The position numbers were made by a program, and so were the translations under genes. Positions 39,746 to 41,462 of a DNA stretch of 64,000 bases are shown here, piece after piece; the first letter of the stretch is position 1; each line of letters opens with the position of its first letter. The notes under the pieces were generated by a model. It saw nothing but the letters and a program-made list of their open reading frames with translations, searched no databases and had not been told where the DNA came from. The stretch is from the NCBI RefSeq assembly GCF_000255455.1, contig NZ_JH621254.1, positions 62,001-126,000 on the forward strand, in the 5' to 3' direction. The DNA comes from Aquimarina agarilytica ZC1 (GTDB lineage Bacteria > Bacteroidota > Bacteroidia > Flavobacteriales > Flavobacteriaceae).

Positions 39746-39788
39746 TTATGGAAATAATCCACATTATTGGATTATTTCCATAAATTTG
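39746..39788. promoter_or_regulatory. Perfect 16-bp inverted repeat and promoter box of the umuCD operon
   Basis: The arms 39746-39761 and 39768-39783 are perfect reverse complements with a 6-bp spacer (CATTAT). The 3' arm overlaps TAAATTTG (39781-39788), an exact Bacteroidota -7 box, only 4 bp before the umuC ATG. A repressor bound here would block polymerase. The predicted start site falls at or next to the start codon, so the message may be leaderless. A -33 element is not apparent. Confidence 0.75.
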
Positions 39789-39792
39789 CGAT

Positions 39793-41043
39793 ATGTTTGC
39801 TTTAATTGATTGTAATAATTTTTATGCGAGTTGCGAGCGGATATTCAAACCTTCGCTTATTAAAAAACCTATTGTTGTACTTTCCAACAATGACGGCTGC
39901 ATTATAGCGCGTAGTGATGAAGCCAAAGCTTTCGTTCCCATGGGAGCTTCTACCCATAAATATGAAGAAGTATTTAAGCAGCATAATATTCATGTTTTTT
40001 CGTCCAATTATGCACTTTATGGAGATATCAGTCAGCGTATTATGACAATTATTGAAAAGTATAGCCCTGATATAGAAGTATACTCTATTGATGAAGCTTT
40101 TGTTCAATTTATAGGCTATGACAATTACGATTTGGGTGCCTATTGTTTACAATTAAAAAATGAAGTCTTTCAAAATTTAGGAATGCCCATTAGTATAGGT
40201 GTTGCTCCAACTAAGGCCTTAGCTAAAATAGCCAATAAAATTGCTAAAAAATTCAAAAATCAAACTCAAGAAGTATATGTGATAAACACCGAAGAAAAAC
40301 GTATAAAAGCTTTAAAATGGACAAAAATTGAAGCTGTTTGGGGTATTGGAGCAGCTATTAGTACTCGTTTAAAATTGAAAAATATTAATTATGCTTATGA
40401 GTTTACACAACTCCCAAAAGATTACATTCAAAAGGAATTTAGCATTGTTGGATTACGTTTGTTTAAAGATTTATGTGGTGAACCTACACTACAATTAGAT
40501 GAGATAAAGAATAAAAAAGCTATTGCAACTACACGTACTTTAAAAATTATTTCAAAAGACTGGGAACTCATTAAAGAGCGTATTGTAACTTTTGCTATTA
40601 CTTGCGCCGAAAAATTACGAAGACAAAATTCTGTGGCTAACGTGGTTTATGTATTTATTAAAACCAATAAAAAGCGTACGCATTTAAAACAGTATTCCAA
40701 TAGTATTGCGCTTAATTTGCCTTATGCAAGTGATTCTAATATTACAATATCTCAATATGCTATTAAAGCCTTGCAACATATTTATAAATCGGGTTATTAT
40801 TATAAAAAAGTAGGAGTTATCATTATGGGAATTACTCCTAATACAAACAGACAATTAAACTTATTTAGTAGCGAAGATACACGACACATTGCATTAATGA
40901 AATCTATAGATGCCATGAATCAAAAATACAATGAGCCTATACGCTTGGCTTCGCAAGACTTGGGAAAAAAGTGGAAAATGAAACAAGAACGCCTTTCACC
41001 TTCTTATACTACAAATTGGGATGATATTTTAACCGTAAAATGA
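39793..41043 (+). CDS. umuC: Y-family DNA polymerase V catalytic subunit
   Basis: Error-prone translesion polymerase. [15 protein letters not shown] carries the first catalytic Asp (D6) and steric residues; VYSIDEAFV carries the second (Asp-Glu). [16 protein letters not shown] fingers/thumb region and little-finger C-terminal domain follow; 416 residues, typical. It overlaps umuD by 4 bp. Notably it lies upstream of umuD, the reverse of the E. coli umuDC order. Confidence 0.95.
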
Positions 41044-41462
41044 GAGTCACATTATATCAACCTCAAAAAGGAAAACAACAAAAAATCACTTTTGTTGATA
41101 CAGGTATTTCTGCTGGTTTCCCCTCTCCTGCCGAGGATTTTACTCAAAAAAAATTGAGTCTTGATGACAAATTAATCCAAAATAAAGAAGCCACTTTTTA
41201 TGCTCGAGTCCAAGGAGTTTCTATGATCAACGCAGGCTTGGATGATGGGGATTTATTGGTTATTGATCGGAGCATTCCTCCAAAAAACAATCATATTGCT
41301 GTTTGTTATTTAAACAATGAGTTTACCGTAAAAAGGCTAGCTATAGAAAATAAAAAAGTGACACTTATTCCTGAAAATGAAGACTATGAAAAAATTGAAA
41401 TCTCCGAAGGAAGCGAACTTATTATTTGGGGTATTGTTACTTATGTAATAAAAAAGGTGTAG
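41040..41462 (+). CDS. umuD: UmuD-type autoproteolytic polymerase V subunit
   Basis: LexA-like serine peptidase. The predicted cleavage site is A25-G26 in [11 protein letters not shown]; the nucleophile is S61 ([10 protein letters not shown]) and the general base K98 (FTVKRL), almost the same numbering as E. coli UmuD (S60, K97). At 140 residues it is complete. The ATGA overlap with umuC sets the start. Self-cleavage would be triggered by a RecA filament, which forms the active UmuD'2C. Confidence 0.95.

Follow-up and report, generated by a model that had tools for sequence, protein, structure and literature searches.

The gene for a mutagenic polymerase in Aquimarina agarilytica ZC1 is preceded by a perfect inverted repeat that reaches into its promoter, which raises the question of which regulator acts at this locus and where transcription begins. 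The locus lies in a window of 64 kb, the whole stretch of DNA analysed here, which comes from a 4.25-Mb draft genome. The first gene, umuC (39793..41043, + strand, ATG at 39793), encodes a Y-family polymerase with the domains IMS, IMS_C, and DUF4113, and its 3' end is overlapped by the 5' end of umuD (41040..41462, + strand, ATG at 41040), which encodes an S24 protein. A domain scan of UmuD returned Peptidase_S24 as the sole match, in agreement with the first-pass annotation, in which no HTH had been seen in this protein. It is very probable that the element in front of umuCD consists of tandem SOS operators for two dimers of R1, an HTH-containing S24 regulator encoded in the same genome, and that damage-triggered cleavage of R1 releases a leaderless umuCD mRNA. 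The features of the locus, the presence of R1 with its own operators, and the co-occurrence and geometry in relatives are observed, and binding and mitomycin induction are assigned by analogy with published relatives; cleavage and derepression in this genome, cooperativity between the two dimers, and the exact start site are inferred.

The repeat spans 39746..39783 and consists of two arms of 16 nt (39746-39761 and 39768-39783) that are 100% complementary and separated by a 6-nt gap. No longer perfect inverted repeat (loop <=30) exists in the window, and 25 dinucleotide shuffles of the window yielded no perfect inverted repeat of 14 bp or more; a search for the exact repeat in viral contigs gave no match. 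The first-pass annotation had taken the 16-bp repeat for a single operator with GGAAATAATCC half-sites, overlapping the TAAATTTG box. The repeat and its overlap with the box were recovered by the repeat search; the half-site interpretation was not, since GGAAATAATCC is itself a whole GGA-N5-TCC dyad and each arm holds one complete dyad of a known repressor family. The predicted upstream operator, GGAAATAATCC (spacer AATAA), occupies 39750..39760, and the predicted promoter-proximal operator, GGATTATTTCC (spacer TTATT), occupies 39769..39779, 1 nt from the -7 box; the dyads are 19 bp apart, centre to centre, and lie at positions -43 and -24 relative to the start of umuC. GGA-N5-TCC is the EMSA-tested operator of the non-canonical LexA of S. 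agarivorans, also of the Flavobacteriaceae (Sanchez-Osuna et al. 2021, PMC8565304), and, according to the main text of that study, altering either dyad half or the spacer length abolished binding. Moreover, three other Aquimarina umuC promoters (G168, G177, and G135, the first two being very alike) retain two dyads at 19 bp and have no inverted repeat longer than 7 bp. Thus, the conserved unit is the dyad pair, and the 16-bp repeat can be rejected as such a unit.

Single GGA-N5-TCC sites are uninformative, and it is close pairing and position that stand out. The window contains nine copies of GGANNNNNTCC, compared with 4.98 expected, a number reached by 6 of 100 shuffles, and the own genome contains 70 matches to GGAWWWWWTCC versus 114 for the reversed control; 34 of the 43 sites examined in context (out of the 70) fall inside ORFs. 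Pairs and promoter position were therefore used. A genome-wide search for further copies of the motif, as had been proposed earlier, was thus of little use at the level of single sites, whereas the regulator and umuC promoters alone stood out among these 43 sites and the pair search.

The -7 promoter element TAAATTTG (39781..39788, + strand) fits TAHHTTTG, the consensus and spacing being taken from PMC9723704 and PMC6847099. It overlaps the right arm of the repeat by 3 nt and is separated from the umuC ATG by 4 nt (CGAT), which agrees with the earlier measurement of 4 bp. The main texts of these reports give 4 or 5 nt from the box to +1 in probable promoters of F. johnsoniae (PMC6847099) and place the -7 box of F. 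psychrophilum at -12 to -5 (PMC9723704). Since the umuC gap is 4 nt, the predicted transcription start is the A of the umuC ATG (39793..39793, + strand), which is consistent with the start at or beside the start codon suggested in the first-pass annotation. Such an arrangement is uncommon: leaderless mRNAs make up 5.5% in F. psychrophilum (PMC9723704), and leaders exceed 10 nt in 87% of the F. johnsoniae transcripts for which a probable promoter is known (PMC6847099). Nonetheless, 36 of 58 family genomes have a TAHHTTTR box at 4-5 nt from the start of the first umu gene, compared with 9 of 304 control ORFs (at least 200 aa, from the retrieved DNA and the window), counts that are uncorrected for kinship and of which the control figure is lowered somewhat because the first ATG of an ORF was taken as its start in the controls. 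Judged from these promoters, a leaderless start of umuCD appears well supported. The box occurs at this distance in 9 of the 14 genomes with R1 and in 27 of the 44 without it; because so many regulator-free umu operons share it, the leaderless layout may be older than the GGA operator and independent of it.

R1 (G000:C10:111010-111777) combines HTH_3 with S24 and is one of five S24 matches in its genome. Four of the five were scanned for domains: R1 and its paralogs R2 and R3 carry HTH_3 or HTH_19, and UmuD carries no HTH. A second short S24 match (G000:C9:18826-19173; L009, L016), a 153-aa open frame, lies outside the window. All 59 aligned regulator sequences, the own one included, share the Ala-Gly, Ser, and Lys residues. 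R1 was modelled by AlphaFold with low confidence (mean pLDDT 60.9); the model is helical in its N-terminal part and ends in a helix. Foldseek placed the lambda repressor (3bdn) first, followed by LexA structures, at low whole-chain TM-scores (TMq 0.32 for the top match), the arrangement of the domains being uncertain. In the R1 promoter, there are two GGA-N5-TCC dyads, GGATTATTTCC and GGAATAAATCC, 42 bp apart, the first of which is preceded, at a distance of 19 bp, by a GGA-N5-TAC site; among 30 Aquimarina promoters, L133-L139, the own one among them, show this arrangement. By its domains, its Ala-Gly, Ser, and Lys residues, and the dyads in its own promoter, R1 is a candidate regulator of the non-canonical LexA type. 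This supports the earlier view that the palindrome belongs to a regulator other than classical LexA, as the dyads fit the published non-canonical motif and no E. coli-type CTGT was seen by eye in 39746-39792. The suggestion of a different SOS-like factor holds insofar as the factor is non-classical; it is not a new one, having been published in PMC8565304.

According to this reading, two R1 dimers, each with a CI-type HTH and S24, would bind at 39750-39760 and 39769-39779, probably cooperatively, and the bound protein would mask the region of the -7 box, so that RNA polymerase is obstructed at the umuCD promoter. Upon DNA damage, RecA filaments would induce self-cleavage of R1 at the Ala-Gly bond, the umuCD promoter would open, and a leaderless mRNA would begin at or very near the A of the umuC ATG. 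The repressor-over-promoter layout proposed in the first-pass annotation is thus supported.

The regulator promoters of relatives point to similar operator arrays. In Aquimarina, 30 loci were examined out of 58 genomes with a regulator match; all 30 promoters have a site within 200 bp of the gene and 28 have two, at spacings of 39-42 bp (26) or 59 bp (2), and none has a strict pair at 18-23 bp. The set from other genera (n=45) comprises 52 non-own matches minus the weak G023, G091, G068, G045, G015, and G062 and minus G105, in which no ORF was found; some of its start codons were assigned by a rule and are evidently misplaced in places (e.g., L202 and L219). A site within the same 200 bp was found in 41 of these promoters and an adjacent pair at 18-23 bp in 31, versus shuffle means of 1.24 and 0.0. 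Adjacent sites are 18 bp (11), 19 bp (15), 20 bp (2), 21 bp (2), 22 bp (11), or 23 bp (14) apart, with seven larger distances and none below 18 bp. A universal 19-bp spacing is thus ruled out.

A search pattern for pairs, restricted from the outset to spacings of 18-23 bp and to matches starting with T, gave 128 forward matches in 52 Aquimarina genomes (reversed control: 11) and 116 matches on the reverse strand (reversed control: 14). Some matches fall inside ORFs; among the Aquimarina loci examined, intergenic pairs lie upstream of dinB, a PA0069-type radical SAM gene, SRAP, an exonuclease gene, and a TIR-domain gene. In the own genome, the pattern matched the umuC pair and one position inside an ORF (C2:197). 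The own dinB has no site in approx. 1.4 kb upstream, so the regulon, as far as motif matches indicate, looks small in this genome. As a separate observation, a 21-bp GGA-N5-TCC pair lies beside a TIR-like gene in eight loci (L244, L247, L252, L255, L260, L264, L265, and L270); TIR_2 was confirmed by Pfam for the L264 gene, the others being assigned by resemblance of the gene start, and some of these genes are divergent from a radical SAM gene. A damage-inducible TIR protein in Aquimarina is therefore possible, and a literature search on TIR domains with the SOS response or LexA in Bacteroidetes found no report.

If R1 acts at umu operons, site and regulator should occur together. UmuC and R1 were each searched in the same 120 family genomes, own included, with presence set at E <= 1e-60 for both and the best umuC copy counted per genome. 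Of 58 family genomes with umuC, 14 have R1 and 44 do not; a GGA-N5-TCC site no more than 100 bp from the leading umu gene is present in 13 of the former and in none of the latter (Fisher p 4e-12, kinship ignored). The exceptions are G041, which has the regulator without a site, and G042, which has a single site, so that dyad pairs are present in 12 of the 13 site-bearing operons, spaced at 18 bp (1), 19 bp (8), or 22 bp (3). The remaining 13 genomes with R1 have umuD before umuC, and the pairs seen in other genera lie at umuD promoters, whereas umuC comes first in the window. The idea that the motif stands directly upstream of every umuC had to be discarded, as 61 of 62 umuC copies from other genera have no site within 200 bp; the single exception, in G042, is at -183, inside umuD by position. 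Across genera, the site-free umuC upstream regions are explained by gene order and regulator presence, which is not so within Aquimarina. Identity to the window umuC is 51-59% in 40 regulator-free genomes and 32-43% in the remaining four, compared with 39-47% for 12 copies from R1 genomes and 56% for that of G041. The window copy thus resembles the site-free type more closely, and its lineage may have gained the operator pair separately.

Within Aquimarina, two sets of genomes gave umuC matches in 13 of 52 and 4 of 11 members, and R1 is present in 14 of these 17 genomes. The best umuC copy carries strict dyads in six of the 14 (the window, G172 = L163, G124 = L164, G168, G177, and G135), every pair being 19 bp apart; in the compilation of umuC promoters, one record appears twice, as L163 and as L292, so its 19 rows correspond to 18 distinct copies. 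In A. agarivorans (G154), whose umuC is 81% identical to that of the window (uncultured Aquimarina copies reach 94% and 92%), the arms are of the GGA-N5-TAC variant, 22 bp apart and complementary. The other seven (G126, G153, G155, G157, G160, G166, and G171) have no site at umuC, nor any strict site near the umu operon in up to 1500 bp upstream. The three genomes without R1 (G149, G158, and G174, all less than 90% complete) have no umuC site either. Identity to the window umuC is at least 64% in all six copies with sites and 48-58% in the seven without, and all six belong to the lineage nearest to that of the window. The link between site and regulator, as read from these genomes with kinship ignored, hence appears strong across genera and loose inside Aquimarina.

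These comparisons bear on the other explanations of the repeat. It is improbable that the 16-bp repeat is one large operator, recognised through GGAAATAATCC half-sites by a regulator of another kind. Such an operator would account for the perfect symmetry, which extends to 17 bp in the close relative G172, and for the upstream region of A. agarivorans umuC (L165/L121), whose arms, GGAAATAATACC and GGTATTATTTCC, are unlike those of the window yet mutually complementary over 12 bp; these arms look as if they had changed together, e.g., by quasi-palindrome template switching. However, it fits neither the three relatives that keep the dyad pair without a long repeat nor the pairs at umuD promoters of other genera, and a lone dyad is the published operator (PMC8565304). 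A role for the repeat as a nucleic-acid hairpin, whether RNA or DNA (an attenuator or a cruciform), in place of protein binding is scarcely credible: although the stem is perfect and the loop has 6 nt, the predicted +1 falls downstream of the stem, which would therefore not be transcribed from the -7 box promoter, and the dyads occur without a stem in the same three relatives.

It is also very improbable that R2 or R3 is the regulator of umuCD. Both are encoded in the own genome, and R2 has, by eye, Ala-Gly, GDSM, and a plausible Lys. However, in the upstream stretches examined, their palindromes differ (TTTGTAGCAAT/ATTGCTACAAA for R2; CTAATAATATTAG, which fits CTAA-N5-TTAG, the other published motif, for R3), whereas GGA-N5-TCC is carried by the R1 promoter, and R3 has no GDSM serine and shows Asp-Gly near the expected Ala-Gly position. 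R3 is located at L017:1068-1823 (-). At the R2 locus, TTTGTAGCAAT/ATTGCTACAAA form a perfect 11-bp inverted repeat around the R2 start codon (L015:866-899, G000 contig C10), and the R2 gene overlaps the 5' end of an RNase_T/GIY-YIG exonuclease gene. A similar exonuclease has a GGA-N5-TCC pair in three other Aquimarina loci (L258, L263, and L268), which suggests that the regulator of this gene changed in the own genome.

With R1 dimers at tandem operators as the preferred reading, the odd palindrome becomes a concrete prediction of how mutagenesis is controlled in a marine flavobacterium. A broader proposal, rated at somewhat under an even chance, is that Flavobacteriaceae umu operons share paired, cooperative CI-type dimers (18-23 bp apart) and a -7 box for a leaderless mRNA, that this leaderless layout is older than the GGA operator and independent of it, and that the umuC-first lineage of the window acquired its pair separately from umuD-first operons. 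If this holds, the leaderless layout may bring mutagenesis under additional translational control during stress. Operator pairs at 18-23 bp and start-codon-adjacent umu promoters are two testable additions to the published network, the latter in a group with mRNAs devoid of Shine-Dalgarno sequences and with only a small minority of leaderless mRNAs. In the main texts searched, no description of the paired geometry or of near-leaderless umu promoters was found.

In E. coli umuDC, a LexA site likewise lies over the promoter of a mutagenic polymerase, and repression is relieved by RecA-stimulated self-cleavage; this layout is shared with the window, whereas the DNA-binding fold and the motif differ. 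Lambda CI binds at OL/OR to adjacent operators approx. two helical turns apart. The likeness concerns the adjacent-operator spacing, an S24 repressor with a helical N-terminal domain, and the top Foldseek match 3bdn, whereas the system described here targets host DNA repair and would show cooperativity only by prediction. HdiR and UmuDAb, which are separate lineages (PMC8565304), are S24 proteins other than LexA that also control error-prone polymerases; the window UmuD differs in having no HTH. The closest counterpart is the network described in the main text of PMC8565304, with dinB, the umuDC operon, SplB, and an SOS-associated peptidase as predicted members, two or more sites in several promoters, and specific binding (EMSA) and mitomycin induction (RT-qPCR) in the relatives studied. 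Both systems have the N5 dyad, an error-prone polymerase as a target, an HTH_3 + S24 regulator with Ala-Gly and Ser/Lys, and the motif in the promoter of the regulator gene itself. The window differs in having umuC before umuD, a 16-bp perfect repeat with dyads at 19 bp, and a leaderless-looking promoter; the terms "leaderless" and "cooperativ" are absent from that main text. The umuCD promoter adds a new and well-supported case to a known SOS network whose mechanism has already been described.
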